Assembly: GCA_902510415.1 (NCBI GenBank) | Contig: CABXBH010000001.1 | Span: 73,596 to 107,968, forward strand | Length of the DNA stretch: 34,373 nucleotides | Source: an uncultured Bacteroidota bacterium | GTDB lineage: Bacteria > Bacteroidota > Bacteroidia > Flavobacteriales > Flavobacteriaceae | Direction of reading: 5' to 3' | Shown here: positions 16,530 through 33,334 of the stretch, piece by piece | Layout of the letters: every line of letters starts with the position of its first letter | Numbering within the stretch: position 1 is the first letter of the stretch | Translations under genes and position numbers: made by a program | The notes under the pieces: generated by a model | What the model was told of the DNA's origin: nothing | Databases searched by the model: none | The model's input: the letters and a program-made list of their open reading frames with translations, nothing else

Positions 16530-16554
16530 AAAATTCATCTTTTTTAAATTTAAT

Positions 16555-16562
16555 TATCTTTG
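16555..16562 (+). promoter_or_regulatory. Candidate -7 element for the DoxX gene
   Basis: TATCTTTG fits TAnnTTTG and lies 25 bases before the ATG at 16587, in the divergent gap with GH125. No TTG is seen at the -33 position. Confidence 0.35.
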
Positions 16563-16586
16563 TTCATCAAACCAAAAAAAATAAAA

Positions 16587-16958: not shown

Positions 16959-16988
16959 AAAGATTACTCTCAAGACTTAAAATAGTTT

Positions 16989-16996
16989 TATTTTTG
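16989..16996 (+). promoter_or_regulatory. Candidate -7 element for the susC operon
   Basis: TATTTTTG matches TAnnTTTG 30 bases before the ATG at 17027. A TTA at 16964-16966 is 22 bases upstream. It would drive susC, susD, the DUF4959/5000-like gene and GH5, all spaced by 3-11 bases. Confidence 0.4.
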
Positions 16997-17026
16997 CCCA
17001 AAATTAAATTAAATCGATTTCTTAAA

Positions 17027-20000
17027 ATGAATCAAAGAAATATACTACTAATATACATGTTGTTGTTTTCATCAATAATTTATTCTCAGTCAATTCTTGT
17101 GAGCGGAATTGTTGTTGATGAGGGGGGGAATCCGCTTCCAGGTGTTACAGTATTAATTGAGGGTACAAATAGAGGTGCCTCAACTACTTTTGAAGGTACA
17201 TATGCGATAAAAGCGGACAATGAAAATCAAAATATTCAGTTTTCTTATATTGGTTTTGAAACTCAATCTATTTTAATTGGCAAACAAAAAAATATTGATG
17301 CTATAATGCTTGAAAGTCTCGAATCTTTAGAGGAAGTTCAGGTTGTAGCATTTCAAAAGCAGAAAAAAAACAGTGTAATAGGTTCTATTAATACAATAAA
17401 TCCGTCCGAATTAAAAATCCCTACATCTAATATCACAAATGCAATGGCAGGAAAATTGGCTGGAATGATTTCTTACCAAAGATCTGGTGAGCCAGGTGCA
17501 GATAATGCTGAATTTTTTATTAGAGGTGTTACAAGTTTTGGTTATGCAAACAACCCTCTTATTTTGATCGATGGATTAGAAGTTACTACTAACGATTTAG
17601 CTAGGATAGAACCGGATAACATAGCGAGTTTTTCAATCATGAAGGATGCTACAGCAACTTCACTTTACGGAGCAAGAGGTGCTAATGGTGTAATCTTAGT
17701 TACAACAAAAGAAGGTAAGAAAGGAAAGGCTAAAGTTTCTTTTAGATATGAAAATTCAATATCGTCACCGTCACAAACTAATGAATTTTTAGGAGGCGTT
17801 GATTATATGAACTTATATAATCGTGCAATTAGAACAAGAGATCCATCAGCTCCATTAACTTACAGTATATCTAAGATTTATGGAACATTGAATGGTGGAG
17901 ATCCTAATATTTATCCTAATGTAAATTGGTATAATGAATTATTTAAGGATTATACTATAAATAGAAAAGCAAATTTGAATGTTAATGGAGGAGGAGATAT
18001 AGCACAGTACTACCTTTCAGTCTCACACAATAATGATACTGGTTTATTAAAAGTAGATCCTTTAAACAACTTTAATAATAATATTGATATCAAAAGGTCT
18101 AATTTAAGAGCCAATATAAATATAGACTTAACAAGTACAACAAAAATTGCCGTTAAATTTTATTCCTTATTTGAAAGATATAATGGTCCCTCAGTTTCGG
18201 CAAATGATATATTTGGTTCTGTAATGCAGGCTAATCCTGCAAACTTCCCAAAGTATTTTTCTTACGAAGATAATTTAGGATATAATCATACTCTTTTTGG
18301 AAATAAAGGTAATGGTGGATTTCCTAATCCTTATGCTGATATGGTAAAGGGTTATAAAGATAGATTTACGAATACTATTTTTTCCCAAGTTCAAATTGAG
18401 CAGGACCTTAAGTTTATTACTGAAGGACTAAAATTTCGTGGGATGGCTTCTGTTCGAACATATACTATGAATGAAAACTCGAGGGAGTATACACCATTCT
18501 ATTATGGGATGGCTGAGGTTGAAACAGAACAAGGAATTTTAAATTATTTATACAGAATTCAAGAAGGAACAGAGTTTTTGAATAATCCAAGTGTAAATAA
18601 CTTGGGTACTAGTAGATTTTATTATGAATTTGTAACAGAATATAACAGAAAATTTAACGAGCTACATGATATAGGAGGTTTGCTTGTATTTAATTTTAGT
18701 GAATCTTTAAACACTATAGGAGGTAATAGTGCTTTTGCTACATTACCTTCAAGAAATATGGGGCTTTCAGGAAGATTTTCATACAATTATGATTCGAGAT
18801 ATTTCACTGAATTCAACTTCGGCTATAATGGCTCTGAAAAATTTGCTAAAAATAATAGGTTCGGATTTTTTCCATCAATTGGTCTTGGCTGGATTTTATC
18901 AAACGAAGAATGGTTTAATGAAAAGCTGCCTGATGTAAATATGTTTAAACTTAAACTTACACATGGGTTAGTTGGTAATGATGGAATTTCAAGTGCTGAT
19001 GATAGATTTTTCTATTTATCAGAAGTTAATTTACAAAGTGATAGTTACGGTTTTACATGGGGTTCTGATTTTAACAATTACTACCAAGGTTATGTTATTG
19101 ATAGATATTCTAATCAAAATGTGACTTGGGAAGTAGCTGAAAAAACAAATTATGGTTTAGAGTTAGGTTTGTTTAATTCTTTGAACTTGCAAGTTGATTA
19201 CTTTACTGAGCATAGATCAAAAATTTATATGTCTAGAGACTATATCCCATCTACTATGGGGTTAACAACAACAATCAGTAGTAACTTAGGTGAAGTTGAT
19301 TCAAGAGGTATTGATTTATCAATCGATTACAACAAAGCTTTTGACTCAGGTTTGATACTTTCAGGAAGGGGTAATTTCACTTATTCTACTAACGAAGTTC
19401 TAATTAATGGAGAACCTGATTACACTTATGATTATTTGAGTAGAATTGGCTATCCAGTAAATCAATCATGGGGATTAATCGCAGAAAGATTATTTATTGA
19501 TCAAGCAGATATAGAAAATTCACCTGAACAATTTAATGGATTTTCTTCTTCTTCAAATTCTTATATGCCAGGTGATATTAAATATACTGATGTTAATAAT
19601 GATGGCGTTGTAAACGAGTTAGATAGAGTCCCAATAGGTAAACCAATAGTTCCAGAAATTGTTTATGGATTTGGAGTGTCAGCTTCTTACAAAGGGTATG
19701 ACTTTTCTATTTTTATGCAAGGTGTTGCTAGAACATCTTTCTTTATAAACCCAAATGATATATCGCCTTTTGTAAATGAAAGAAATGCCTTAAATGTGAT
19801 AGCTGATAATCACTGGTCTATTAATAATCCAGATCCAAATGCATTTTGGCCAAGACTTTCAACTTACTCAATTGCTAATAATGAACAACAGTCTACATGG
19901 TGGCAAAGAGATGGTGATTTTATAAGATTAAAAAATTTAGAAATAGGTTATACGTTCCCAGATAATGGAACAGGTTTATTTTCAGGATTAAATACAAGAG

Positions 20001-20128
20001 TTTATTTTACTGGATTGAATCTTTTAACCTTTTCAAAATTTGATTTATGGGATACAGAAATGGGAGGAAATGGATTGGGGTACCCTCCTCAAAAGGTTTA
20101 CAATATCGGATTACAAGTTAATTTTTAA
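17027..20128 (+). CDS. susC: SusC-type TonB-linked outer membrane transporter
   Basis: A 1033-residue TonB-dependent outer-membrane channel. After the signal peptide (cut near YSQS, ~20) comes a carboxypeptidase-regulatory-like beta domain at ~22-100 (VVDEGGNPLPGVTVLIEGTN), the plug domain at ~105-225 with GVTSFGYANNPLILIDGLEV and KDATATSLYGARGANGVILV, and the barrel, ending in NIGLQVNF with the C-terminal Phe of outer-membrane barrels. SusC pairs with SusD to bind and import oligosaccharides using the proton motive force. The ATG at 17027 starts the signal peptide; upstream codons from 16994 lack one. SusD follows after 6 bases. Substrate cannot be read from SusC itself. Confidence 0.95.
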   Translation: MNQRNILLIYMLLFSSIIYSQSILVSGIVVDEGGNPLPGVTVLIEGTNRGASTTFEGTYAIKADNENQNIQFSYIGFETQSILIGKQKNIDAIMLESLESLEEVQVVAFQKQKKNSVIGSINTINPSELKIPTSNITNAMAGKLAGMISYQRSGEPGADNAEFFIRGVTSFGYANNPLILIDGLEVTTNDLARIEPDNIASFSIMKDATATSLYGARGANGVILVTTKEGKKGKAKVSFRYENSISSPSQTNEFLGGVDYMNLYNRAIRTRDPSAPLTYSISKIYGTLNGGDPNIYPNVNWYNELFKDYTINRKANLNVNGGGDIAQYYLSVSHNNDTGLLKVDPLNNFNNNIDIKRSNLRANINIDLTSTTKIAVKFYSLFERYNGPSVSANDIFGSVMQANPANFPKYFSYEDNLGYNHTLFGNKGNGGFPNPYADMVKGYKDRFTNTIFSQVQIEQDLKFITEGLKFRGMASVRTYTMNENSREYTPFYYGMAEVETEQGILNYLYRIQEGTEFLNNPSVNNLGTSRFYYEFVTEYNRKFNELHDIGGLLVFNFSESLNTIGGNSAFATLPSRNMGLSGRFSYNYDSRYFTEFNFGYNGSEKFAKNNRFGFFPSIGLGWILSNEEWFNEKLPDVNMFKLKLTHGLVGNDGISSADDRFFYLSEVNLQSDSYGFTWGSDFNNYYQGYVIDRYSNQNVTWEVAEKTNYGLELGLFNSLNLQVDYFTEHRSKIYMSRDYIPSTMGLTTTISSNLGEVDSRGIDLSIDYNKAFDSGLILSGRGNFTYSTNEVLINGEPDYTYDYLSRIGYPVNQSWGLIAERLFIDQADIENSPEQFNGFSSSSNSYMPGDIKYTDVNNDGVVNELDRVPIGKPIVPEIVYGFGVSASYKGYDFSIFMQGVARTSFFINPNDISPFVNERNALNVIADNHWSINNPDPNAFWPRLSTYSIANNEQQSTWWQRDGDFIRLKNLEIGYTFPDNGTGLFSGLNTRVYFTGLNLLTFSKFDLWDTEMGGNGLGYPPQKVYNIGLQVNF

Positions 20129-20134
20129 AAAATT

Positions 20135-22030
20135 ATGAATAAAAAAATTATAGTCATTGGTTTATTGTTAAGTATGTTCGGTTGCGATGAATACTTGGAC
20201 ATTGTACCAGATCAAACGCAACAGATTGATTTGTTGTTTGAAAGAAAAGAAGTTGCATATACCGCATTAGCTACATGTTATGCTTATTTACCTAAAAATG
20301 ATGGAGTATATACTTCGTTTATGCTGATGAGTGACGAAGTTACAACTCCTATTGCAAAAGAAACTGATGGAATTAGAATTATGAAAGGTCAGCAGTCAGC
20401 CTCTAATCCAAAATTTGGATTATGGTCAGGTTGGCAAGATCAAGGACCACTTTGGGAGGGTATAAGACATTGTAATGTTCTGATCGAAAATATTTATAAT
20501 GTTGTAGATATGACAGAAGCTGAAATGAATGAGTGGGCTGCCGAGGCTAAATTTCTGAAAGCTTATTATCATTTTCTTCTTTTTACGTATTATGGTCCAA
20601 TCCCAATAGTTGACGAAAATCTACCAATTTCTGCAAGTGATACTGAGGTTAGGGTAAAAAGAAGGACAGTAGACGAATCCGTTGATTATATTGTTGAAAC
20701 AATTGATGAGGCATTGATTCATTTACCATCAAGAGTTTTATCTTCAAATGATTTAGGTAGAATTGATCAGGTCATTGCTAAGGCTATAAAGTCAAGAGTT
20801 TTGACATATGCTGCAAGTCCTTTGTTTAATGGAAATTCTGAGATGTATTCGGGATTTGTAAATGACGATGGAGAACATTTTTTTAATCAATCTTATGATC
20901 AAACTAAGTGGGATAGAGCAAGAGAAGCTTCTCTAGAAGCTATAAATGCATCTATAGAAAATGGGGTAAGTTTATACGAATTTACCTCAACACCTCCTAA
21001 TTATGAAGATGAATACGAGGAAGAAGAGTTTATTCAGACTTTATACAATCTAAAATATTCTATTGTTGATAAATGGAATGCAGAATTGATATGGGGTAAT
21101 TCAAATCCAGTTCGTAATAATGATTGGTGGCAAATGCAGGCTGCATGTATGATGAAAAATCCAAATGCTTCATCTGTTGAGGCTGCTTGGCAATGGATAG
21201 CGCCAACATTGAGAATAGCTGAATTATTTTATTCTGAAAATGGATTACCTATAGATGAAGATTTATCCTATGACTATCAAAATAGATACAACACAACATC
21301 TGTAAATGGTTCACAAAATCTTCAAGCTCAATATGGTGCTAGCACTGCGAAACTTAATCTTGATAGAGAGCCTAGATTTTATTCATCACTTGGATTTGAC
21401 AGAGGTTACAATAGAACATGGGGTAATTTATGGCAATTAAGAATGAAAAAAGGTGAAAGTCATGGTCGAATTGCAAATTCTGATGATTATTTAATTACAG
21501 GATATGCTCTTAAAAAACTGGTTCATCCCGATTCTGAAGGAGATGGATATTCTAAAATTGTCACTTATGCTTGGCCAATGATTAGACTTTCTGAATTGTA
21601 TTTAAATTATGCTGAAGCTATAAATGAATCCAATGGTCCAAATTCAGATGCTTACAATGCATTAAATGTGGTCAGAGAAAGAGCTGGAATAAGAACTGTC
21701 GAAGATGCATGGGGTGATGCAACGATTTCAGCAAATGTAAATAAGCACACCACTCAGGATGGTTTAAGAGAAATTATAAGACAGGAAAGATTAATTGAGT
21801 TATCCTTTGAAGGAAATAGATACAATGATTTAAGAAGATGGAAATTAGCTGATGAGTACTTTAATTCTCCTGTATTTGGATGGTCTGTTGATGAAACTAC
21901 AGTGAGTGGTTATTATAATATAACTCAGGTTGGAATAAGATCATTTAATAATCCTAGAGATTACTTTCATCCAATTAGTATAAATGAAATAACAATTAAT
22001 CCAAACCTGATTCAAAATCCAGGATGGTAA
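20135..22030 (+). CDS. susD: SusD/RagB family surface lipoprotein
   Basis: A 631-residue glycan-binding lipoprotein that forms the lid over the SusC channel. The lipoprotein signal MNKKIIVIGLLLSMFGC puts the lipid on Cys17, followed by acidic residues (DEYLD), as expected for surface export. The SusD helical-repeat pattern is clear: EAKFLKAYYHFLLFTYYGPIPIV near 145-170, the TPR-like middle, and the C-terminal RLSELYLNYAEAIN and LSFEGNRYNDLRRWK. It is slightly longer than many SusD proteins. It begins 6 bases after susC and is followed by the DUF4959/5000-like gene after 11 bases. Confidence 0.95.
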   Translation: MNKKIIVIGLLLSMFGCDEYLDIVPDQTQQIDLLFERKEVAYTALATCYAYLPKNDGVYTSFMLMSDEVTTPIAKETDGIRIMKGQQSASNPKFGLWSGWQDQGPLWEGIRHCNVLIENIYNVVDMTEAEMNEWAAEAKFLKAYYHFLLFTYYGPIPIVDENLPISASDTEVRVKRRTVDESVDYIVETIDEALIHLPSRVLSSNDLGRIDQVIAKAIKSRVLTYAASPLFNGNSEMYSGFVNDDGEHFFNQSYDQTKWDRAREASLEAINASIENGVSLYEFTSTPPNYEDEYEEEEFIQTLYNLKYSIVDKWNAELIWGNSNPVRNNDWWQMQAACMMKNPNASSVEAAWQWIAPTLRIAELFYSENGLPIDEDLSYDYQNRYNTTSVNGSQNLQAQYGASTAKLNLDREPRFYSSLGFDRGYNRTWGNLWQLRMKKGESHGRIANSDDYLITGYALKKLVHPDSEGDGYSKIVTYAWPMIRLSELYLNYAEAINESNGPNSDAYNALNVVRERAGIRTVEDAWGDATISANVNKHTTQDGLREIIRQERLIELSFEGNRYNDLRRWKLADEYFNSPVFGWSVDETTVSGYYNITQVGIRSFNNPRDYFHPISINEITINPNLIQNPGW

Positions 22031-22041
22031 TAATTTATCAT

Positions 22042-23241
22042 ATGAAAACAAATAAAATTTTATCAATATTATTATTTTCTTTTGTCATTCTTTTAGGTTG
22101 TAAAGATGACGATAGTCAGGATACAACTCCTCCGGGTTCTTTGTCTATTGAAAATATTGTTCCTACTAACGGTGGGGGTATAATTTCATATTCTTTGCCA
22201 AATGATTCAGACATACTATTTGTTAGAGCTGAATATACAAATTCAATTGGTGTGGATGTGTATCGTGTTTCAAGTTCACATAATAACTCTATTGAAATTG
22301 ATGGTTTAAATCAAAATACACCTCTTCAAGTTAGATTATTTGTAGTTGATGAAAATGAAAATGTATCACAACCTATTGAAGTTGAATTTACTCCTTTACC
22401 ATCATTTATTTTTCTGGTGCAAGAAAGTATAACAATAACACCCGATTTAGGCGGGGTCAAACTTGAATGGGAAAATATTGCTGAAAAAACAGTATATGTT
22501 CATTTACATATTGTAAATGGAGCTGATCAAGATATAAGAATCCTCTCTTCAAATAGTTTAAGTGAAAGCATATTTGTTAGAGGTCTAGAATCTGTTGAAA
22601 TGATCTTCCTAACAAAAGTTGAAGATTTTGACGGAAATATTACTGATTTGGAGGAAAAAGCTACTTTAACTCCTCTTTTTGAAGAAATGATTGACAAGTC
22701 TACATGGACATTAATGAGTCAATTATCTGTCAACGGTAATGCTTGGGAAGGGGAAACAACTGCTTTTTGGGATGACGTTGTTGATACAGCTGAAACAAAT
22801 TCTGACAACAGTTATTTTATTATATGGAGAGATCAGAACGGAGGTACTTTAAATTGGCCATTAGATATAGTAATAAGCCTAAATAAAAATGTGAGAGTTC
22901 ACAGATTTAAAGTTTGGCAAAGAGCTTTTTGGTATGGTGGTCCTACTGGAGTCCCGTATTATTACCAGGAGGAAAATATGAGGTCATTTAATTTGTATGC
23001 AAGTAATAATTCTGTTGATTGGACTCTCCTAGGTGAATATGATATTGGTGATCCAAGTGATGAAAATGGTAATATTCCTCAAGATTTCATCGATGCAGCT
23101 GCAAATGGACACGATTTTGATTTAGAAGGTGTCTCAGAAAAGTTTAGGTATCTAAAATTTTCGATTACTTCTAATTATGGAAGTGATACCTATGTACATG
23201 GTTCTGAAATTACCTTATGGGGGCTGGATAATGTAGATTAA
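22042..23241 (+). CDS. DUF4959/DUF5126/DUF5000-type surface lipoprotein
   Basis: A 399-residue lipoprotein (lipid Cys20) with the acidic KDDD immediately after the Cys, a Bacteroidota signal for export to the cell surface. The N-terminal part (~27-125, TPPGSLSIENIVPTNGGG) resembles a fibronectin-like DUF4959 module, the middle (~130-215) a DUF5126-like sandwich, and the C-terminal part (~220-395, with FWDDVVDTAE and RVHRFKVWQRAFW) a DUF5000 discoidin-like carbohydrate-binding domain. It takes the SusE-like place directly after susD and probably binds the same glycan. The ATG at 22042 begins the signal; the frame from 22024 overlaps susD. Domain naming is by recollection of pattern. Confidence 0.8.
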   Translation: MKTNKILSILLFSFVILLGCKDDDSQDTTPPGSLSIENIVPTNGGGIISYSLPNDSDILFVRAEYTNSIGVDVYRVSSSHNNSIEIDGLNQNTPLQVRLFVVDENENVSQPIEVEFTPLPSFIFLVQESITITPDLGGVKLEWENIAEKTVYVHLHIVNGADQDIRILSSNSLSESIFVRGLESVEMIFLTKVEDFDGNITDLEEKATLTPLFEEMIDKSTWTLMSQLSVNGNAWEGETTAFWDDVVDTAETNSDNSYFIIWRDQNGGTLNWPLDIVISLNKNVRVHRFKVWQRAFWYGGPTGVPYYYQEENMRSFNLYASNNSVDWTLLGEYDIGDPSDENGNIPQDFIDAAANGHDFDLEGVSEKFRYLKFSITSNYGSDTYVHGSEITLWGLDNVD

Positions 23242-23244
23242 TTA

Positions 23245-25911
23245 ATGAAGAGATATCTAACGTTTATTTTTTTGTATTTTTCAATTTTTGGTTATTCCCA
23301 AAATTTAAGTACTCTTGGTCCATACTTAAAAGATGATAATAGTAATAATGTTATTTTAAGGGGGATAAATTTAGGTGGATGGATGCTTCAAGAGCCTTAT
23401 TTATTTCAATTTACCGGTGCTGCTGATTCCCAGCACGAGTTTAAAGAAAAATTAGTTGAATTTATAGGTCAAGAAAATACAGATAATTTTTACAATTCTT
23501 GGTATGAAAACTTTATAACTCAGGCAGATGTAGATTCTTTAGCCAGTTATGGTTTTAATAGTATTAGACTTCCAATACACTATGATTTATTTACTCTACC
23601 GATTCAAGATGAGCCTGTTCAAGGAGAAAATACGTGGATTGATTTAGGTTTTTTAATGGTAGATAATTTGCTAGATTGGTGTGAATCTAATAATATGTAT
23701 TTAATATTAGACCTCCATGCTGCACCCGGCGGGCAAGGGTTTGGCTCTGACATAAATGATTACAATCCTAATTTACCATCTCTATGGGAAAGTGAAGAAA
23801 ACAAGAATAAAACTATTGCTTTATGGGGTAAACTTGCTGAAAGATATAATGGTGAGCCCTGGATTGGAGGATACGATTTGTTAAATGAGACTCATTGGGA
23901 TTTAGGTGAAAATGAGTTAAGAAATTTTTATATGGATGTCACAGATGAAATAAGAGAATATGATCAGAATCATATAATTTTTGTTGAAGGTAATTCATAT
24001 GCAAACGATTTTTCTGGTTTAACACCTCCTTGGGATGATGAGATTGTATATAGTTTTCACAAATATTGGTCCTACAATGATTCTTTGGATTGGGTTACTT
24101 GGATTAGAGATCAATACAGTGTTCCATTATGGATGGGTGAGGGGGGTGAAAATTCTAATCAGTGGTTTACAGAAGCAATTAAAATATTTGAGGATAATTA
24201 TATTGGATGGGCATTTTGGCCGTGGAAAAAATTAGAATCAATCTCAGCTCCATATGCTATTCCTTCAAACTCTAATTATGAATCTTTAATAAATTATTTT
24301 AGGGGTGATTCTGGAGCTCCTTCATTAGAAAATGCTGTAAGTGGTTTAATGCAGTTGGCTGAGGATTCACACATTTCAAATAATATATTTCAAAAAGATG
24401 TAGTTGATGCAATGATAAGGCAAATTAATTCAAATGAAACCTTGCCTTTTAATATATCTAATAATATTCCTGGAATTTTATATGCATCAGATTATGATTT
24501 AGGCCCAATGGGTTATGCTTATTCAGATGATGATTATGCAACTTATCATATAAATACTGATAATTTTCAGGCATGGAACCAAGGATGGCAATATAGAAAT
24601 GATGGAGTTGATATTGAAAATAGTAACGACTCAGAAGGAAATGGTTATCAAGTTGGATTTACCTATGAAGATGAATGGTTATTATTCACTGTGGAAATTC
24701 AAGAGTCTGGTTTTTATAATATAGTAACTAGGTATGCGTCTACAGCTACTGGAATATTTTCAATGGAGCTTGACGGAATTCCAATAGTTGATAATATTAT
24801 TTTATATAATACTGGTAGTTATTCAAACTTTGTAAATAAATTGTCGCAGGGAATTTATATGCCACAAGGGACATATAAATTAAAAATGAAAATGATTACA
24901 GGGGGATATAATTTATCTAGTGTAACCTTTGATTTATCTGATGAAATCCCTGAATTTTCAATTGAATATGCCGAAGCTCAAGAGGATCTATCTACTATTT
25001 TCCTTTTGCTTAATCAACCTCTTAATATTGATCAAGGAATTGATTATTCACACTTTGACGTTTTTATTAATTCAGAAGAAGTATCCATTTCAGATATAGA
25101 AATCAGTGAAGAGAATCCGCAAGTAATCTATATTTCTCTTGATGAAGAATTCAATTTTCAAGATGATATAACAGTGAGTTTTTATCAAGAATCTGAATTG
25201 GAATCAGTATTTAATGAATACCTGTTAACATTTTCAGCATTTCCTGTTTATAATAATGTTAGTGAAAGAATATTAATTCCAGGTTATGTTGAAGCAGAAG
25301 ATTTTATTTTTCAAGAAGGAATTTCGACAGAAGATACTTCTGATTCAAATGGTGGATTAAATATTGGTTATACTGATGTAGGTGACTATGCTGATTATTT
25401 GGTATTGGTAACCGAATCAGGCGAGTATGATATTAACTTTAGAGTAGCATCAGAAAATCAGTCAGGATCAATTCTTCTTCAATTGATTGATGGGTCAAAC
25501 ATTCAAAATCTGACTCAGATTTCTCTACCCATTACAGGGGGGTGGCAAACTTGGCAAACTGTTTCAGCTTCTACAACTTTAAATACAGGGTCTTATAAGT
25601 TAAGAATGAAAGTAATTCAAGCTGGGTTTAACCTAAATTGGATTGAATTTGATTACACTGGAAATTCAATGGGTTTAAATGAAAATAAAACAGCCAACAT
25701 TTTGTTATATCCTAACCCAACATCTGAGATTTTAAATATAAGCACTAATCTTGATAATTTTAAAATTGAAATTTTTGATTTAATTGGTAAAAAAATATTT
25801 GAAACCATAAATTCTAAGTCGTTGCATATCAATGAATTTGATAACGGAATTTATTTATTAAAAATTTCACATGGAATGTATTCACAATCAAAATTATTTA
25901 TAAAAAAATAA
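23245..25911 (+). CDS. GH5 glycosidase with two CBM6-like modules and T9SS sorting domain
   Basis: An 888-residue secreted enzyme. Order: signal peptide 1-18; GH5-like catalytic barrel ~25-350, with acid/base candidate E215 (DLLNETHW), SFHKYWS near 270 and nucleophile candidate E299 (WMGEGGEN); CBM6-like module ~402-568; a connecting beta domain ~570-670; a second CBM6-like module ~673-805 (VEAEDF, DVGDYADY); and a T9SS sorting domain ~812-888 (LLYPNPTSEIL). RGINLGGWML recalls exo-beta-1,3-glucanases of GH5, so a beta-glucan is a reasonable guess, though GH125 nearby suggests mannan. It starts 3 bases after the DUF5000-type gene and is last in the susC operon. Confidence 0.88.
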   Translation: MKRYLTFIFLYFSIFGYSQNLSTLGPYLKDDNSNNVILRGINLGGWMLQEPYLFQFTGAADSQHEFKEKLVEFIGQENTDNFYNSWYENFITQADVDSLASYGFNSIRLPIHYDLFTLPIQDEPVQGENTWIDLGFLMVDNLLDWCESNNMYLILDLHAAPGGQGFGSDINDYNPNLPSLWESEENKNKTIALWGKLAERYNGEPWIGGYDLLNETHWDLGENELRNFYMDVTDEIREYDQNHIIFVEGNSYANDFSGLTPPWDDEIVYSFHKYWSYNDSLDWVTWIRDQYSVPLWMGEGGENSNQWFTEAIKIFEDNYIGWAFWPWKKLESISAPYAIPSNSNYESLINYFRGDSGAPSLENAVSGLMQLAEDSHISNNIFQKDVVDAMIRQINSNETLPFNISNNIPGILYASDYDLGPMGYAYSDDDYATYHINTDNFQAWNQGWQYRNDGVDIENSNDSEGNGYQVGFTYEDEWLLFTVEIQESGFYNIVTRYASTATGIFSMELDGIPIVDNIILYNTGSYSNFVNKLSQGIYMPQGTYKLKMKMITGGYNLSSVTFDLSDEIPEFSIEYAEAQEDLSTIFLLLNQPLNIDQGIDYSHFDVFINSEEVSISDIEISEENPQVIYISLDEEFNFQDDITVSFYQESELESVFNEYLLTFSAFPVYNNVSERILIPGYVEAEDFIFQEGISTEDTSDSNGGLNIGYTDVGDYADYLVLVTESGEYDINFRVASENQSGSILLQLIDGSNIQNLTQISLPITGGWQTWQTVSASTTLNTGSYKLRMKVIQAGFNLNWIEFDYTGNSMGLNENKTANILLYPNPTSEILNISTNLDNFKIEIFDLIGKKIFETINSKSLHINEFDNGIYLLKISHGMYSQSKLFIKK

Positions 25912-25938
25912 TTGTTTTTAAGTCTATTTACATTTTTG
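25912..25938 (+). promoter_or_regulatory. Candidate promoter for the tyrosine-degradation operon
   Basis: TTG (25912-25914), 16 bases, then CATTTTTG (25931-25938), an imperfect match to TAnnTTTG, 26 bases before the ATG at 25964. This 52-base gap is the only space ahead of the operon. No clear terminator separates it from GH5, so read-through is possible. Confidence 0.28.
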
Positions 25939-25963
25939 TAATTTTAAGCAAACAAACTAAAAT

Positions 25964-27130
25964 ATGCCTAGATATCATAAACTAGGAGATATACCCAGTA
26001 AAAGACATACTGTTTTTAAAAGTAAAAGCGGTGATTTCTATTATGAAGAGCTTTTTGGCACAATTGGATTTGATGGAATGTCATCTCTGATGTATCACAC
26101 CCAAAGACCTACACAAGTAAAAGAAATTGTCAAGACTTACTCTGTATCTCCAAAAGCTGCCATTGAAAACAATATGAAATCAATGATGTTAATGGGATTT
26201 AACATTAATAAAGAAACTGATTATTTAAAAAGTAGAAAAGTAATTTTATTTAATAGTAATTGCCAAATATCTTTAGCTTCTCCTTCAGAATCATTAAAGG
26301 AATATTATTACAAGAATACCGATTCAGATGAAGTATTGTTCATTCATAAAGGATCTGGAAAGTTAAGAACCTTTTTAGGTAATATTGATTTTAAATACGG
26401 AGATTATTTGGTTATTCCTAGAGGAGTTATCTATCAGATTGAATTTGATGATGAAGATAATCGATTATTTATTGTTGAATCTAAATCGCCTATTTATACT
26501 CCAAAGAGATATAGAAACTGGTTTGGTCAACATCTAGAAAGTTCTCCTTATTGTGAGAGAGATTTACACCCTCCTACTGAGTTAGAAACATATAATGAGT
26601 TAGGAGATTTCCTTCTTAAAATTAAAAAAGACGATTCGATACATGAGTGTAATTATGCTGCTCATCCTTTTAGTGTTATAGGTTGGGATGGTTATAATTA
26701 TCCTTATAAGTTTTCAATTCATGATTTTGAGCCAATAACAGGAAGAGTTCATCAACCACCACCTGTCCACCAGACATTTGAGACAAGTAATTTTGTGATT
26801 TGTTCTTTTGTACCAAGACTGTATGATTATCACCCAGATGCAATACCCGCACCATATAATCACAGTAATATTGATTCTGACGAAGTAATATACTATGTAG
26901 ATGGAGATTTTATGAGTAGAAATAATGTTAACGAAGGATATATTAGTCTTCACCCTGCTGGTATTCCTCATGGACCACATCCAGGTCTTATGGAGAAGAG
27001 TATAGGAAAAAAAGAAACTAAAGAGCTAGCCGTTATGGTTGATACCTTTCAACCACTAATGGTAACTGATTATGCTCTTAAAATAGACGATGGTAAGTAT
27101 TACAAATCTTGGTTAGAAAAAAACAAATAA
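25964..27130 (+). CDS. hmgA: Homogentisate 1,2-dioxygenase
   Basis: Opens the ring of homogentisate with O2, giving maleylacetoacetate, in tyrosine breakdown. The 388-residue length suits the shorter bacterial form. The iron ligands are visible as His300 (YNHSNIDSDE), Glu307 and His336 (AGIPHGPHPG), following the cupin pattern of the family, and the N-terminus YHKLGDIPSKRHTVFKS is typical. It is cytoplasmic. The stop TAA overlaps the start of the next gene by one base (TAATG), and it heads the operon, implying coupled translation. Confidence 0.95.
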   Translation: MPRYHKLGDIPSKRHTVFKSKSGDFYYEELFGTIGFDGMSSLMYHTQRPTQVKEIVKTYSVSPKAAIENNMKSMMLMGFNINKETDYLKSRKVILFNSNCQISLASPSESLKEYYYKNTDSDEVLFIHKGSGKLRTFLGNIDFKYGDYLVIPRGVIYQIEFDDEDNRLFIVESKSPIYTPKRYRNWFGQHLESSPYCERDLHPPTELETYNELGDFLLKIKKDDSIHECNYAAHPFSVIGWDGYNYPYKFSIHDFEPITGRVHQPPPVHQTFETSNFVICSFVPRLYDYHPDAIPAPYNHSNIDSDEVIYYVDGDFMSRNNVNEGYISLHPAGIPHGPHPGLMEKSIGKKETKELAVMVDTFQPLMVTDYALKIDDGKYYKSWLEKNK

Positions 27131-28263
27131 TGGAAACAAAAAAAATGGAGATTGATAAAATTTTTTCAGAAGCAAAAGATTTTTTACCAATATTAGGTAT
27201 AGATTATATTGAATTTTATGTTGGTAATGCAAAACAATCAGCATATTTCTATAAATCTGCATTAGGATTTGAATCTGAGGCATATTCTGGACTTGAGACA
27301 GGAGATAATGATAAGGTGTCATACGTAATAAAACAGGAAAAAATAAGATTTGTTTTAACATCATCATATACAGGTAAATCTGAAATTAATGACCATTACC
27401 TAAAACACGGTGATGGGGTAAAGATTGTTGCATTTTTAGTTGAAGATTCTGAAAAGTCATATAATGAGACTATAAAAAGAGGTGCAAAGTCTTTTTTAAA
27501 GCCAACAAAAATTTCTGATGAAAATGGTTTCATAATAAAATCTGGAATTTATACATACGGAGAAACAATTCATTTATTCATTGAAAGAAAAAATTATAAA
27601 GGAACATTTCTTCCAGGATATAAAGAATGGGAAAGTAGATACTCTCCAAATTCAGTAGGGTTAAAATATGTTGATCATGTAGTTGGTAATGTTGGCTGGA
27701 ATGAAATGGATAAATGGTGTAAATTCTATCAAGATGTTTTAGGGTTTACACAAATAGTATCTTTTGACGACAATGATATCTCTACAGAATATACAGCTTT
27801 AATGAGTAAAGTTATGAGTAATGGAAATGGAAGGGTAAAATTTCCAATTAATGAACCTGCTGAGGGGTTAAATAAATCTCAAATAGAAGAATATTTAGAT
27901 TTCTATAACGGACCAGGTGTTCAGCATTTAGCTTTAGCAACTGATAATATCATTAAAACTGTTAGTGAAATGAAAAATAGGGGAATAGAATTCCTATATG
28001 TTCCTGAAACCTATTATCATGATTTAATCGAAAGAGTTGGACATATTGAAGAAGATGTTGAATTATTAAGAAAAAATGGAATTTTGATTGATCGTGACGA
28101 TGATGGTTATCTTTTACAAATTTTCACTAAACCTTTAGTTGATAGACCAACAATATTTTTTGAAATCATTCAAAGAAGAGGAGCAAACTCTTTTGGAAAA
28201 GGGAATTTTAAAGCCCTTTTTTTAGCTATTGAAAGAGAGCAGAGAAATAGAGGAACACTTTAA
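27130..28263 (+). CDS. hppD: 4-Hydroxyphenylpyruvate dioxygenase
   Basis: Converts 4-hydroxyphenylpyruvate to homogentisate, using non-haem iron, O2 and no external 2-oxoglutarate. The 377-residue protein has two vicinal-oxygen-chelate halves. The iron-binding 2-His-1-Glu set is His183 (YVDHVVGN), His266 (GVQHLALATDN) and Glu345 (FFEIIQRRG), and the C-terminal helix region GANSFGKGNFKALF is conserved. The start at 27130 forms TAATG with hmgA; a second possible Met is five codons later. Confidence 0.95.
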   Translation: METKKMEIDKIFSEAKDFLPILGIDYIEFYVGNAKQSAYFYKSALGFESEAYSGLETGDNDKVSYVIKQEKIRFVLTSSYTGKSEINDHYLKHGDGVKIVAFLVEDSEKSYNETIKRGAKSFLKPTKISDENGFIIKSGIYTYGETIHLFIERKNYKGTFLPGYKEWESRYSPNSVGLKYVDHVVGNVGWNEMDKWCKFYQDVLGFTQIVSFDDNDISTEYTALMSKVMSNGNGRVKFPINEPAEGLNKSQIEEYLDFYNGPGVQHLALATDNIIKTVSEMKNRGIEFLYVPETYYHDLIERVGHIEEDVELLRKNGILIDRDDDGYLLQIFTKPLVDRPTIFFEIIQRRGANSFGKGNFKALFLAIEREQRNRGTL

Positions 28264-28269
28264 TTTTTT

Positions 28270-30021
28270 ATGCCAAAAGACAAAGATTTAGAAATAGAAT
28301 TCAATGAAGTAACTTCAAAATTACCAAAGAGCTTACATGCTTTCATAGTAAAACAACCTTATACTGAATATACTTTCCAAAATCAGGCTGTTTGGAGATA
28401 TGTCATGCGTTTAAATGTTGATTTTTTAAAAAATGTTGCACATGGTTCATACATAAACGGACTTGAGCTAACAGGTATATCTATTGATGAAATTCCAAGA
28501 ATGGAGGGTATGAATAGAATTTTAAAAGATATTGGTTGGGCAGCAGTAGCCGTCGATGGTTTTATTCCTCCCAATGCATTTATGGCGTTTCAAGCACATA
28601 ATGTTCTTGTTATTTCATCCGAGATAAGAACCATAAATCATATTGGATATACTCCTGCACCAGATATAATACATGAAGCAGCTGGACATGCACCAATTAT
28701 TGCTAATCCTGAATATTCTGAATATTTGAGAAGATTTGGAGAATTAGGCAGTAAGGCAATTTCTTCAGAGGAAGATGATAAAATATTTGAGGCAATTAGA
28801 GAGCTTTCAATATTAAAAGAAAATCCAAATTCATGCCCTAAAGACATTAGTATAGCAACAAAGAATGTTGAAGAAATACAGAAAAATGTTACTGAGTTAT
28901 CGGAAATGGCAAAAATAAGAAATCTTCATTGGTGGAGTGTTGAATATGGTTTGATAGGAGAAATTGATGATCCAAAAATATACGGAGCAGGTCTATTATC
29001 ATCAATAGAAGAAAGTAAGGAATGTTTATCCAATAAGATAAAAAAAATACCATATTCAATTAAAGCTGCTGAAACTAATTTTGATATAACTTCGGCACAA
29101 CCTAATCTCTTTGTTACTCCAACATTTTCACATTTAAGCTATGTCTTAGAAAAATTTGCTAACAAAATGTGTGTTAGGGTTGGGGGGTTGAGTTCTGTAA
29201 ATAAAGTTATTAATTCACAAAAGATGGGTACTATCGAATTATCAACTGGTATTCAAATCTCCTCAATATTTACAAGGGTTATATCTTCAAATGATAAGCC
29301 TATTTATATTCAATCTTCATCTCAAACGGCGCTATCAAATAAGAATAAAGAATTAATAGGCCATGGGGTTAACTATCATAAAGATGGATTTGGTTCTCCT
29401 ATCGGTAAGTTAGATGGTATAAATCTAGCAATTGAAGACATGTCACCTAAGGATTTGGAGGCTTATGGAATTATTGAAGGAAAATCTATTAATCTTAATT
29501 TTGAAGGAGGCGTATTAGTTTCAGGAAAAATAATTACAGGAATAAGAGACGTACAAGGTAAAATTCAACTCATGAGTTTTAGTGATTGCACAGTAACTTA
29601 TAAGGAAGAAATTTTATTTAAACCTGAATGGGGTATTTATGATATGGCTGTAGGAAAAGAAGTTGTTTCAGTTTTTGCTGGACCAGCAGATGATAATTCT
29701 TTTACCAATTCATTTAAATTGCCAGAATCAACGTCACCAGAAATTGTATATAGTGATAAAGAATTGAAACTTCATAAATTATATGGTGAAATTAAATATT
29801 TAAGAGAATTGGGAACTATCGAAATTAAAAAAATCACATCAATTTATAATGAGATTATGTTAAGTTATCCTCTGGAATGGCTTATATTACTTGAAATTTA
29901 TGAGTTAATAGTAGATTCTGAATTTGAACTTAAAGATAAACTTAGAGAAGATTTATCTGAGTTAAGAAAAATTGATAAGTATACAGATTTAATTGATAAT
30001 GGATTAAAATTAATCAAATGA
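28270..30021 (+). CDS. phhA: Aromatic amino acid (phenylalanine) 4-hydroxylase with long C-terminal extension
   Basis: A 583-residue protein whose first ~300 residues are the pterin-dependent aromatic amino acid hydroxylase fold. Iron ligands are His135 and His140 (PDIIHEAAGHAP) and Glu225 (WWSVEYGL). It would turn phenylalanine into tyrosine, feeding hppD after transamination. Typical bacterial phenylalanine hydroxylases have about 260-300 residues; here ~280 extra residues follow, with no domain I recognise. They include a beta-rich stretch near 390-490 (INLNFEGG, DCTVTYKEE) and an alpha-helical tail near 500-583. I recall a similar long form in other flavobacteria, so this is probably not a local fusion. 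It overlaps fahA by 4 bases (ATGA). Confidence 0.9.
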   Translation: MPKDKDLEIEFNEVTSKLPKSLHAFIVKQPYTEYTFQNQAVWRYVMRLNVDFLKNVAHGSYINGLELTGISIDEIPRMEGMNRILKDIGWAAVAVDGFIPPNAFMAFQAHNVLVISSEIRTINHIGYTPAPDIIHEAAGHAPIIANPEYSEYLRRFGELGSKAISSEEDDKIFEAIRELSILKENPNSCPKDISIATKNVEEIQKNVTELSEMAKIRNLHWWSVEYGLIGEIDDPKIYGAGLLSSIEESKECLSNKIKKIPYSIKAAETNFDITSAQPNLFVTPTFSHLSYVLEKFANKMCVRVGGLSSVNKVINSQKMGTIELSTGIQISSIFTRVISSNDKPIYIQSSSQTALSNKNKELIGHGVNYHKDGFGSPIGKLDGINLAIEDMSPKDLEAYGIIEGKSINLNFEGGVLVSGKIITGIRDVQGKIQLMSFSDCTVTYKEEILFKPEWGIYDMAVGKEVVSVFAGPADDNSFTNSFKLPESTSPEIVYSDKELKLHKLYGEIKYLRELGTIEIKKITSIYNEIMLSYPLEWLILLEIYELIVDSEFELKDKLREDLSELRKIDKYTDLIDNGLKLIK

Positions 30022-31256
30022 AAAGTTGGATAAACATACCTAAAGACTCAGATTTCACAATTTATAATTTACCTTTTGGAGTATTTTCTACTTCAGAAAA
30101 ATCAAAAAGAGTTGGTGTAGCAATTGGAAATAACATCATTGATTTACTTGTATGTAATCGCGTTAATATTTTTGAAGGTTTAACTATTGATGACTCGATA
30201 TTTGAGAATGATTATTTAAATGAATTTATCAATCTAGGAAAAAAGAAAACTAATAGAATCAGGGAAATAATTCAAAATGAACTTTGTAATGATCAATCAG
30301 TTTTAAAAAGTAATAATGATGTAATTCTTTTAAAGAAAACTGCTAAAATGCATATTCCTGTTAAAATTGGTGATTATACTGACTTTTATTCAAGTATTGA
30401 ACATGCATCTAATATTGGCTCCATGTTCAGGGATGCTTCAAACCCACTACTCCCTAATTGGAAGCATTTACCAGTAGGCTATCATGGTAGAGCTTCCTCA
30501 ATTATTGTAAGTGGAGTTGATATTCGAAGACCTAAGGGCCAGATTAAACCAATCGATTCTGAAATACCTGTATTTTCATCATCTAAAAGATTAGATTTTG
30601 AATTAGAAATGGGATATATAATTGGAAAAAACTCATCTTTGGGTAGTTCAGTTTCTACTAATGAGGCTGAAGATTATATTTTTGGAAAGGTCTTGTTCAA
30701 TGATTGGTCTGCAAGAGATATACAAAAATGGGAATATGTGCCATTAGGACCCTTTTTAGGAAAAAGTTTTGCTTCATCTATATCTCCATGGGTTGTTACT
30801 TTAGAAGCATTAGAACCTTTTAAAGTTGAAGGGCCAATCCAAAAACCTGGTGTTTTAGATTATCTAAAATTTTCAGGTTTAAAAAATTATGATATTAATT
30901 TATCAGTTTCTATTATTCCAGATGAATCAAATGTTGAGTCTCAGATATGTGAATCAAATTTCAAATACATGTATTGGAATATGAGTCAACAAATTGCTCA
31001 TCATACAGTGAACGGATGCAACTTAAATATTGGAGATATAATGGCTTCGGGAACAATTAGTGGTAAATCTAAGAATTCGTTTGGTTCAATGCTTGAGTTA
31101 TCATGGGGAGGAAAGAATAAGATTAAATTAGACGATGGTTTAACCAGAACGTTTATTGAAGATTATGACTCTATAGTAATGAGAGGATATTGTGAAAAGA
31201 ATGATATTAGGGTTGGTTTTGGAGAAGTTAGATCGAAATTATTACCTTCATTTTAA
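30018..31256 (+). CDS. fahA: Fumarylacetoacetase
   Basis: Hydrolyses fumarylacetoacetate to fumarate and acetoacetate, the last step of tyrosine degradation. The 412-residue length is typical. The metal-binding and catalytic residues are visible: Asp122 and catalytic His129 in DYTDFYSSIEHA, Glu195 and Glu197 in FELEMG, and Asp229 in NDWSARDIQKWEY. PVGYHGRASSI is the conserved substrate loop. The start overlaps the hydroxylase stop by four bases, and the flavin-reductase-like gene begins one base after its stop, so translation is tightly coupled. Confidence 0.96.
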   Translation: MKSWINIPKDSDFTIYNLPFGVFSTSEKSKRVGVAIGNNIIDLLVCNRVNIFEGLTIDDSIFENDYLNEFINLGKKKTNRIREIIQNELCNDQSVLKSNNDVILLKKTAKMHIPVKIGDYTDFYSSIEHASNIGSMFRDASNPLLPNWKHLPVGYHGRASSIIVSGVDIRRPKGQIKPIDSEIPVFSSSKRLDFELEMGYIIGKNSSLGSSVSTNEAEDYIFGKVLFNDWSARDIQKWEYVPLGPFLGKSFASSISPWVVTLEALEPFKVEGPIQKPGVLDYLKFSGLKNYDINLSVSIIPDESNVESQICESNFKYMYWNMSQQIAHHTVNGCNLNIGDIMASGTISGKSKNSFGSMLELSWGGKNKIKLDDGLTRTFIEDYDSIVMRGYCEKNDIRVGFGEVRSKLLPSF

Positions 31257-31257
31257 T

Positions 31258-32151
31258 ATGGAAAAATTTAAAACTTTAGACCCTAAAAATCTTTCAACCA
31301 AAGAAATACATAAAATTCTTTTGAGCTCCATTACTCCACGCCCAATAGCACTAGCAAGTACAATAGACAATAATGGAATTGTAAATCTTAGCCCTTTCAG
31401 TTATTTTAATGTATTTAGTGCTTCACCACCTATTTTGATTTTTTCTCCAGCAAATAGAGTTACAGATAATTCAAAAAAGGATACATTAAATAATGTTAAA
31501 ACTAACAGTGAAGTAGTTATAAATCTTGTTGATCATAAAATTGTTGAGCCGACATCATTATCTAGTGTCTATTTTGATAGTGGAGTTGATGAGTTTATTA
31601 AATCTGGATTAACAAAATTAAAATCTACTAAAGTTTCACCTCCAAGGGTTAAGGAATCCCCTGTTTCTTTTGAATGTAGAGTGAATGATATAATCAATTT
31701 AGGAAAAGATGGTGGCGCAGGAAATCTAGTTATTTGTGAAGTGTTAATGCTTCATATAAATGAAGAGTTTACAGATTCAAATGGAGATATAGATCCATTG
31801 AAAATGAATTTAGTAGCTAGAATGGGAGATAATTATTATTTAGATATACAACCTGATAATTTATTTGAAATTAAAAAACCAGTAGGAATTAATGCAATTG
31901 GAGTAGATAGATTACCTGAACATATCCATCAAACTAATATTTTATCTAAAAATGATTTAGCAAGGTTAGGAAATATAGAAAAAATTCCAGAAAATAAAGA
32001 AATCATCGAATTCTTAGCGTCTTCAGAAACAGAAAAAATTATTGGTTTAGTCGACGAATCTGAAAAAGTAAAACTTGTTCATAAAAAGGTCAAAGATTTG
32101 CTTGAATCAGATGAGATAGAAAAAGCTATTTTAACATTATTTTCAATTTAA
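31258..32151 (+). CDS. Flavin-reductase-like FMN split-barrel protein
   Basis: A 297-residue cytoplasmic protein with the split-barrel flavin-reductase fold: SITPRPIALASTIDNNG near 28-44, NLSPFSYFNVFSASPP, and a barrel ending near residue 210, followed by a helical C-terminal tail. Such proteins bind FMN or FAD and reduce it, or use it for other chemistry. It starts one base after fahA, so it belongs to the aromatic operon, where no flavin-dependent step is known. A role in completing or supporting the pathway is inferred; see findings. Starting at 31258 gives a family-typical N-terminus; frame-open codons upstream overlap fahA. Confidence 0.85.
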   Translation: MEKFKTLDPKNLSTKEIHKILLSSITPRPIALASTIDNNGIVNLSPFSYFNVFSASPPILIFSPANRVTDNSKKDTLNNVKTNSEVVINLVDHKIVEPTSLSSVYFDSGVDEFIKSGLTKLKSTKVSPPRVKESPVSFECRVNDIINLGKDGGAGNLVICEVLMLHINEEFTDSNGDIDPLKMNLVARMGDNYYLDIQPDNLFEIKKPVGINAIGVDRLPEHIHQTNILSKNDLARLGNIEKIPENKEIIEFLASSETEKIIGLVDESEKVKLVHKKVKDLLESDEIEKAILTLFSI

Positions 32152-32155
32152 ATTT

Positions 32156-33334
32156 GTGAGAAAAATATTCATCCCTCTATTGTTTATAATTTTTAATCAA
32201 CAAAACGCACAAACTGTATATGTTGAGGATAGAAAAATATATGTAGAAAATCAAGAGTACAGAATAAACGGTGTATGTTATGCTAGAGGAGAGGGTAATG
32301 GTGAAAACTCTGGGTTTACTTACAATGATGATATTCCGTTGTTAGTTGAGGCTAATATAAATACAATTAGAACCTATGCTGCAATAACGAATGTAGCAGA
32401 GTTAAATGCTTTTGCAAATGCTGGTATTAAGGTAATTATGATGCTAAATGAAAATAGTTATACTTGGTATGTAAATCAATTCAAAGACCATCCAGCTATT
32501 CTGATGTGGGAGTTTGGAAATGAATTTAATTATCATCCTGAATGGTTTGGTAATAATATTCAAAACTGGTATAATATCCTTGAAAATTGTGCAGCTACCG
32601 TAAATTCTTTAGACCCTAATCATCCGGTTAGTACTGGTCATGGAGAGGTACCTAATAGCCAAGCTTTAAATTCTTGTCCTAGCGTTGATGTATGGGGTAT
32701 GAATATATACAGATGGTTAAGTCCAGATTCTGCAATAAACGATCTAGCATCAATAACTGATAAAGCTATGTATATTTCTGAAGCAGGAGCAGACAGTTTT
32801 AATACAAATTCAAACTCAGAAAATCAAGCACAACAAGCTCAAGCAACTGAAATAATTTTAAATTCTATTATTCAGCAGTCTGATTTATGTGTCGGGGTAA
32901 CATTATTTGAGTTTTGTGATGAATGGTGGAAGGCAGGTAATCCAAATCAGCAAGATCCAGGAGGATTTTCTAATGCTATTCCTTATGATAATTTTGCCAA
33001 TGAAGAATATTGGGGTATAGTTACAAGAGATAGAGTGCCTAAGTTATCATATTATGTGGTTCAAGAAATATACGAATCAACAAGTCTTTCTATTGATGAG
33101 AATTTTATTGATATTAATGTTTATCCTAACCCTGTTTCAGATGGGTTTTTAAATATTATAAATCCGTCAAATGAGCCTTTAAATATTTCTGTTTATGATA
33201 TGAATGGAAGAAAGGTTCATTCAAAGCAAATTATTTTTGATTCTATTGATATTTCTGATTTATCTAGTGGCTTTTATTTATTGGAGATAAAAAGTGGAGA
33301 AAGAACTACGACTAAAAAGATAGTAGTTAAATAA
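32156..33334 (+). CDS. Clan GH-A secreted glycosidase with T9SS sorting domain
   Basis: A 392-residue exported glycoside hydrolase. Signal peptide 1-18 (cut near QNAQ). The (beta/alpha)8-type domain at ~20-305 has acid/base candidate E123 (MWEFGNEFN), and nucleophile candidate E209 (MYISEAGAD), plus a WGMNIYRW strand. The pattern is that of clan GH-A (GH2 C-terminal barrel, GH5 or GH72-like); I cannot fix the family. A T9SS sorting domain occupies ~312-392 (VYPNPVSDGFLN, LSSGFYLLEIKSG). The start is GTG, four bases after the flavin-reductase stop, so it may be read on the aromatic operon's message. It ends in an 8-base overlap with the convergent photolyase gene. Confidence 0.85.
   Translation: MRKIFIPLLFIIFNQQNAQTVYVEDRKIYVENQEYRINGVCYARGEGNGENSGFTYNDDIPLLVEANINTIRTYAAITNVAELNAFANAGIKVIMMLNENSYTWYVNQFKDHPAILMWEFGNEFNYHPEWFGNNIQNWYNILENCAATVNSLDPNHPVSTGHGEVPNSQALNSCPSVDVWGMNIYRWLSPDSAINDLASITDKAMYISEAGADSFNTNSNSENQAQQAQATEIILNSIIQQSDLCVGVTLFEFCDEWWKAGNPNQQDPGGFSNAIPYDNFANEEYWGIVTRDRVPKLSYYVVQEIYESTSLSIDENFIDINVYPNPVSDGFLNIINPSNEPLNISVYDMNGRKVHSKQIIFDSIDISDLSSGFYLLEIKSGERTTTKKIVVK

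Follow-up and report, generated by a model that had tools for sequence, protein, structure and literature searches.

A flavin mononucleotide-type split-barrel protein as a candidate for the vacant maleylacetoacetate isomerase step in tyrosine catabolism of Bacteroidota

The tyrosine catabolic operon of an uncultured Flavobacteriaceae bacterium ends its set of pathway genes with a gene for a split-barrel protein, which may act as a flavin mononucleotide (FMN)-type, glutathione-independent maleylacetoacetate isomerase. The operon is located at positions 25964–32151 of a stretch of 34,373 nucleotides from contig CABXBH010000001.1 (GenBank assembly GCA_902510415.1), hereafter the window. On the forward strand it contains the genes for homogentisate 1,2-dioxygenase (hmgA, 25964–27130), 4-hydroxyphenylpyruvate dioxygenase (hppD, 27130–28263), an aromatic amino acid hydroxylase (phhA, 28270–30021), fumarylacetoacetase (fahA, 30018–31256) and the split-barrel protein of 297 amino acids (31258–32151). 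That the last gene belongs to the tyrosine pathway is well supported by its phylogenetic profile, its clustering with genes of the fumarylacetoacetate hydrolase (FAH) family and a shared tree position. The isomerase activity is deduced from pathway logic, profile and clustering, and we consider the arguments for and against it to be about evenly balanced. A sequence-only reading of the operon had suggested that the split-barrel gene could cover the missing step; its place in the pathway has been borne out, while an isomerisation with reduced flavin goes beyond what our data show.

The step from maleylacetoacetate to fumarylacetoacetate is vacant both in the window and far beyond it. The known enzyme, MaiA or HmgC, is a zeta-class glutathione S-transferase (GST) represented by the model TIGR01262, and in Proteobacteria its gene adjoins that of fumarylacetoacetate hydrolase. 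According to the sequence-only reading, this enzyme uses glutathione, a compound that most Bacteroidota do not make. The absence of maiA from the window, noted in the same reading, extends, at the model's cut-off, to all sampled genomes of the phylum. The genome-wide search that the reading had proposed found no protein matching TIGR01262 at E ≤ 1e-3 in the organism's own assembly, which is 67.8% complete in 63 contigs. Likewise, maiA was above the cut-off in none of 295 evenly sampled genomes of the class Bacteroidia, with weak GST matches in one of them only (G150), and was found in none of 75 Bacteroidota genomes outside this class. In a control set of 14 genomes, TIGR01262 matched in three and exceeded its cut-off in one. 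Fumarylacetoacetase scored above the cut-off in 184 of the 295 class genomes and 20 of the 75 others. Eight other genomes of the same family, given as 100% complete, each encode a split-barrel homologue together with HmgA and FahA, and the search for maiA gave no match in any of the eight. The isomerase gap is general across the sampled phylum and is not peculiar to the operon in the window.

The distribution of the split-barrel gene closely follows that of hmgA. We compared the two in 252 class genomes with at least 90% completeness and at most 5% contamination, counting by hand from the match lists and taking E < 1e-20, a limit chosen after viewing the list, to define a strong split-barrel homologue. 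Presence or absence agrees in 242 of the 252 genomes: both genes occur in 222 and neither in 20, with hmgA alone in four and the split-barrel gene alone in six (G049, G061, G086, G098, G198 and G291), three of which (G049, G086 and G198) have kept a strong fahA. At the looser limit of E ≤ 1e-3, which also takes in distant flavin reductases, the corresponding numbers are 224 with both, 10 with neither, two with hmgA only and 16 with the split-barrel gene only. The separate set of 75 genomes from other classes contains 23 with both genes, 43 with neither, eight with hmgA only and one with the split-barrel gene only, and four of the hmgA matches in this set are weak (E 9e-8 to 5e-12). The co-occurrence of the split-barrel gene with hmgA and fahA in genomes lacking the isomerase, which the sequence-only reading had put forward as a check, was thus observed inside and outside the class. 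Furthermore, hmgA and the split-barrel gene are both missing from single members of otherwise positive families (G256 in family f41 and G035 in family f36), and these coupled absences speak against a mere lineage effect.

The usual linked neighbour of the split-barrel gene is a gene of the FAH family. Among the best 80 named loci of at least 589 relatives, a sample biased towards the window's own type, 20 have an FAH gene upstream in the same orientation, at a distance of no more than about 450 bases in 19 of these, and hmgA is also present in the fetched flank of 13 of the 20. The gene order of the window recurs at L263 and L283. An FAH gene also lies next to the split-barrel gene without hmgA in the fetched flank, both at L094, L095, L097 and L149 and at seven of the 20 named loci; since L303 and L095 come from the same genome, the samples overlap slightly. 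In total, the adjacency was seen in eight family codes (f1, f2, f16, f32, f68, f41, f51 and f84). In family f84, which falls outside the class, hmgA, fahA and the split-barrel gene stand in this order in all five genomes with a full-length split-barrel gene. We also fetched the regions around fahA in 80 of the 184 class genomes with this gene and in the window; the fahA open reading frame (ORF) was located in 78 of the 81 regions, and L088–L090 were left out. Of the 78 regions, eight have the split-barrel gene at most about 1 kb away from fahA; these include five of the six regions that also hold hmgA, with L076 as the exception. The idea that its function is bound to the window operon alone was rejected, as the gene is not beside fahA in most of the class regions fetched.

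The FAH partner is of two types, and both accompany the split-barrel gene. The long fahA is of the ordinary TIGR01266 type. The short type appeared in five of 40 author-selected regions around split-barrel genes, where a gene for an FAH-family protein of 331–335 amino acids lies just upstream, directly so in four and with one ORF in between in L151; hmgA and hppD are divergent in four of the five. Short FAH genes upstream of the split-barrel gene are located at L163:4838–5833, L164:6594–7589, L149:5170–6177 and L324:4899–5915 and were also seen at L151 and L160, with divergent hmgA-hppD except at L149. The product from L163, the only one of these that was scanned, is assigned to PF01557, and TIGR01266 gave only weak matches in five sampled genomes with the short gene. 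In G308, the gene order is hppD, short FAH, hmgA and split-barrel gene.

Other genes in these surroundings may be mentioned in their own right. Genes that possibly use acetoacetate are found downstream in two settings: the split-barrel gene of the f84 cassettes is followed by an ORF of 651–656 amino acids, which in the one case scanned (L228:10336–12291) is an AMP-binding enzyme and by eye an acetoacetyl-coenzyme A (CoA) synthetase, and CoA transferase subunits follow fahA in Streptomyces (L188:9289–10670). Many unlinked copies of the split-barrel gene are followed by a gene for a protein of 115–130 amino acids, presumably DUF3127 (for example L155:6897–7250), as in 16 of the split-barrel regions. 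In the class, a lone fahA is often found no more than three genes away from a serine hydroxymethyltransferase-like gene (L066 and 20 others) or a RelA/SpoT-like gene (L083 and 14 others), both named by eye, which amounts to a conserved gene order.

The gene trees suggest that fahA and the split-barrel gene of the window have a common history. A quick tree of 95 split-barrel proteins included the window protein, 41 of the best 80 named loci (20 linked to FAH and 21 others), 48 sequences from class regions and five from f84. The window protein pairs with L263 (support 86) inside a set of 18 rows (support 95) drawn from Lewinellaceae, Rhodothermia, Lentimicrobiaceae and others, 17 of which, including the window, are linked to FAH. 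Five split-barrel proteins from the organism's own family fall in a clade of 27 rows without FAH linkage. In the fahA tree of 113 rows, the window groups with L263 and L283 (support 96), although the program flags its letter make-up, and eight fahA genes of the own family form a separate clade. Because both genes branch with cassettes of other families and not with their own family, they appear to have been acquired together. Mapped on the split-barrel tree, the linkage to FAH requires a minimum of nine changes, or of three when only well-supported branches are considered.

A second group of proteins, here called family B, occupies a similar slot in hmgA/fahA operons of Priestia, Streptomyces, Pseudonocardia, Rhodococcus, the cyanobacterium Kovacikia and other classes of Bacteroidota. 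Its members have about 290–360 amino acids and the motifs K.RTGG, K.TAGLHH and G.CS; those scanned belong to no Pfam or NCBIfam family and have no relative in the PDB by sequence. They are unrelated in sequence to the window protein, the best BLAST match of three members in a five-sequence comparison being E = 0.01 over 39 residues. Genes of family B lie beside fahA at L186:1186–2202, L188:7209–8087, L191:7158–8036, L189:3261–4157, L250:449–1498, L252:2755–3750, L254:327–1394, L262:354–1436 and L249:403–1431, which represent Gram-positive bacteria, a cyanobacterium and other Bacteroidota classes. On plasmids of Priestia, Streptomyces, Pseudonocardia and Kovacikia, the gene adjoins fahA with hmgA adjacent or near. 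The family occurs in 24 of 72,556 plasmid records (17 and 18 records with two queries), and 16 of the 24 have it adjoining hmgA or fahA as judged by annotation, ORFs or coordinates, the other eight being unchecked Streptomyces records.

The two families appear to replace each other. No member of family B was found in 80 Bacteroidia genomes, in a search that itself had no positive control; the model was verified separately and scores 195–234 bits on five ORFs from other classes. Eight genomes of other classes have hmgA and fahA and neither maiA nor the split-barrel gene, and in four of the seven whose fahA flanks were viewed (about 1.5 kb per side), family B is directly upstream of fahA (G326, G336, G356 and G359). 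None of the five split-barrel cassettes of f84 shows family B within 12–17 kb. Of all our data, this pattern hints most strongly that both families act at the step preceding FahA; family B would then be a candidate isomerase for the organisms that carry it. A glutathione-independent isomerase activity was reportedly observed in Gram-positive bacteria in the 1980s. More tentatively, and with somewhat less than even confidence, we suggest at least three separate origins of maleylacetoacetate isomerisation, in the GST-type MaiA, in the Bacteroidota split barrel with its extension and in family B, of which the last two would be glutathione-free and would replace each other even within the single family f84.

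The split-barrel protein itself passes the gathering score of the Flavin_Reduct profile PF01613 (58.9 bits against 27) and matched no NCBIfam model at E ≤ 0.001. According to its AlphaFold2 model (predicted local distance difference test 89.4, predicted template modelling score 0.86), it has an FMN split-barrel fold at about residues 26/27–201. Foldseek and VIA both match the model to 3bpk, 1eje and 4z85, and the VIA alignments over residues 26–201 have Z-scores of 22.5–23.4 (23.4 to 3bpk_A) and root-mean-square deviations of 2.0–2.2 Å over 163–168 aligned residues. Sequence-profile matches to 3bpk (9e-36), 4z85 (2.2e-32) and 1eje (2.4e-26) all end by residue 206. These three proteins, the NTA (nitrilotriacetate) monooxygenase component B, NbaA (4z85) and an FMN-binding protein (1eje), which we take to be the group called DIM6/NTAB-like, share the PF01613 profile and fold with the window protein, as well as some invariant residues such as C140, and the window protein is predicted to bind FMN. 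Their chains contain 192–216 amino acids, whereas the window family, which is tied to homogentisate catabolism, adds a conserved C-terminal extension at about residues 205–297, with a motif around GIGVD..P..I..S..L..N.LG.LGN near residues 213–240. Also invariant in the window family are H166, K74 and R188. No VIA row goes beyond residue 211, but the extension was modelled only together with the barrel, so that the lack of a listed fold for it carries little weight. A narrow pattern scan gave no viral relatives. On plasmid pSymA of Sinorhizobium meliloti, a relative of 241 amino acids with 40% identity and without the C-terminal part directly follows a gene of the Asp/Glu racemase family (L190:5207–6720).

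Our preferred hypothesis is that the split-barrel gene is a dedicated gene for tyrosine catabolism in the Bacteroidota, the product of which would convert maleylacetoacetate to fumarylacetoacetate without glutathione. The FMN and the family-specific C-terminal extension could together form the site, with the enone of maleylacetoacetate positioned above the flavin. If the enone then underwent a reversible addition or accepted an electron, its carbon-carbon double bond could rotate, and the trans product would pass to FahA. The proposed reaction and the place beside FAH are shared with the GST-type MaiA/HmgC, which belongs to a different protein family.

Among the papers examined, the consulted text of only one joins a flavin reductase with a homogentisate cassette, that of Bacteroidales 4484-276 bin11, which like the window contains hmgA, hppD, fahA and a flavin reductase-like gene (PMC8674449). 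The parts of this source that were available report that a gene for the isomerase was missing from the authors' data, which cover a single bin together with three metagenome clusters and some isolates; they favour a neighbouring isomerase/cyclase-like protein, and the section on the cassette gives no role to the flavin reductase. In the available excerpts of other papers, the fate of maleylacetoacetate in Bacillus anthracis is described as unclear (PMC4457819), HmgC is named for Cupriavidus (PMC11889516), and the legend to a homogentisate cluster lists hmgR, hmgA and hmgB and no isomerase, with an NADH-FMN oxidoreductase in another cluster (PMC6498646); maleylacetoacetate does not occur in the accessible text of PMC9007349. 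We found no paper that assigns the maleylacetoacetate step to the split-barrel family or to family B in the text open to our search, outside which many subscription papers lie. The fold and the pathway are already known, and the assignment of the maleylacetoacetate step to a split-barrel protein would be new.

Several observations weigh against the assignment. The closest solved relatives of named function, the NTA monooxygenase component B and NbaA, are reductases. The Fisher test on the strict co-occurrence table gives p = 1e-20, which is too small because the genomes are related and overstates their independence, and hmgA itself may track aerobic life. Four near-complete hmgA-positive class genomes lack a strong split-barrel homologue (G005, G023, G039 and G168), and three genomes without hmgA contain the split-barrel gene without a strong fahA (G061, G098 and G291). 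Fourteen of the 24 split-barrel positives from other classes are shorter, with open frames of 206–260 amino acids and matches that reach residue 209 at most and do not include the C-terminal extension, and are perhaps paralogues. Nor is the neighbourhood exclusive: 41 of the best 80 named loci have a DUF3127-like gene in the flank that was fetched, and within three genes of fahA in the 78 regions, two housekeeping-type genes named by eye, the serine hydroxymethyltransferase-like one at 21 loci from 10 families and the RelA/SpoT-like one at 15 loci from 10 families, are commoner than the split-barrel gene at 8 loci from 5 families. Since such neighbours recur more often, recurrence could arise from inherited gene order alone. 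The pairing with the split-barrel gene differs from these, however, in being part of operons that contain pathway genes and in recurring in otherwise unrelated contexts. As for the replacement pattern, G314, G323 and G335 show family B neither near fahA nor in the 16-kb regions fetched around hmgA, and G311 has both families, with family B beside fahA and a short split-barrel gene beside hmgA.

With flavin reductases and FMN-binding proteins as its nearest solved structures, the split-barrel protein could instead be an NAD(P)H:FMN oxidoreductase with a redox task in the pathway, either holding the iron of HmgA and HppD in the Fe(II) state or reducing benzoquinone acetate that has arisen from homogentisate back to its precursor. 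Such a role would fit with the close co-occurrence with hmgA and with the short split-barrel genes that directly adjoin hmgA in G308, G350 and G311. It is less easily reconciled with FAH as the usual linked neighbour, also in loci without hmgA in the flank, or with the retention of fahA in half of the six genomes that have the split-barrel gene and lack hmgA, and it leaves the vacant isomerase step and the complementarity with family B unexplained. We regard this role as rather unlikely, and the special tie to the iron dioxygenases that the sequence-only reading had entertained is weakened by the same linkage data. The presence of phhA in the window operon raises another possibility, namely that the protein acts as a dihydropteridine reductase and restores the pterin used by PhhA, as a flavin reductase could reduce dihydropterin. 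In a subset of 80 genomes, however, phhA of any type occurs in 21 and a strong split-barrel homologue in 69, and in the 74 near-complete genomes phhA is uncorrelated with hmgA (both 16, hmgA only 51, phhA only 1, neither 6; p = 1). Because the split-barrel gene mostly occurs without the far rarer phhA, a function as recycling partner of PhhA was rejected and is in our opinion very unlikely.

Another set of explanations places the isomerisation elsewhere. FahA might hydrolyse maleylacetoacetate directly, or the isomerisation might be spontaneous or proceed with any thiol, leaving the split-barrel protein with a secondary task such as the removal of a toxic by-product. The lack of maiA throughout the phylum sample is compatible with this idea, and the consulted part of PMC4457819 refers to reports that some species of Bacillus have a maleylacetoacetate hydrolase activity. 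Yet the split-barrel gene comes with both short and long FAH genes, which is unexpected if one type of hydrolase suffices, and the long fahA beside it is of the ordinary type; we consider the idea improbable. Alternatively, the isomerase could be some other, unlinked protein, such as a cyclase-like or a DinB-type thiol-dependent enzyme, with the split-barrel protein merely accompanying the pathway. The "isomerase/cyclase-like" neighbour indicated in the available text of PMC8674449, the function of which is left open there, belongs by our assumption to the class PF04199, and such cyclases do track hmgA in the 74 near-complete genomes (both 49, hmgA only 18, cyclase only 0, neither 7; p = 2.7e-4). 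They are nevertheless absent from 18 of the 67 near-complete hmgA-positive genomes in the 80-genome subset, as compared with three of the 67 for a strong split-barrel homologue, and PF04199 was rejected as the general isomerase. It had no match in the organism's own incomplete assembly. Apart from pathway genes, the families that recur within three genes of fahA, in at least three family codes of the 78 regions, are by eye housekeeping, regulatory or membrane proteins and not isomerases, DinB not having been searched for, and an unlinked isomerase seems to us about as improbable as direct hydrolysis by FahA.

Returning to the window, the genes hmgA, hppD, phhA and fahA are present and coupled, in agreement with the sequence-only reading. 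The genes hmgA and hppD overlap by one base and phhA and fahA by four, and one base separates the stop of fahA from the ATG of the split-barrel gene. The short-type HmgA of 388 amino acids passes the cut-off of Pfam HgmA_N (44.2 bits against 20.2), is slightly below that of HgmA_C (20.6 against 21) and well short of that of TIGR01015 (59 against 511), and shares 51.7% identity with a protein of Priestia plasmids that is annotated as homogentisate dioxygenase. HppD, with 377 amino acids, scores 446 bits for TIGR01263 (cut-off 277), the long-type PhhA of 583 amino acids 769 bits for NF010657 (cut-off 346) and FahA, with 412 amino acids, 551.5 bits for TIGR01266 (cut-off 375.3). With hmgA, hppD and fahA encoded together, the locus is a homogentisate (tyrosine) catabolic operon.

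It is less clear that the operon ends in the flavin reductase-like gene, as had been supposed, since a gene for a secreted glycoside hydrolase on the same strand starts at 32156, four bases past the split-barrel stop. A scan of 25700–32600 gave two terminator-like sites, a number no higher than in shuffled sequences, and neither is located after the split-barrel gene; a promoter scan around the operon was no better than with shuffled sequence. In a broader context (15090–33334), the tyrosine operon lies inside an apparent glycan-degradation locus, with upstream genes for a GH125 glycoside hydrolase, a TonB-dependent receptor, SusD and a GH5 glycoside hydrolase with a CBM6 carbohydrate-binding module. 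The arrangement resembles a catabolic cassette inserted between two genes for secreted hydrolases.

Genes for HmgA and FahA are common in the sampled Bacteroidota, with no known gene for the step between them, and the split-barrel gene provides a conserved, single-gene candidate that can be tested directly in laboratory strains. Family B represents a parallel candidate for the Gram-positive bacteria. If the hypothesis is correct, a fold known for flavin reduction would perform a cis-trans isomerisation that requires glutathione in the GST family, and the annotation of tyrosine catabolism could be completed in many genomes.

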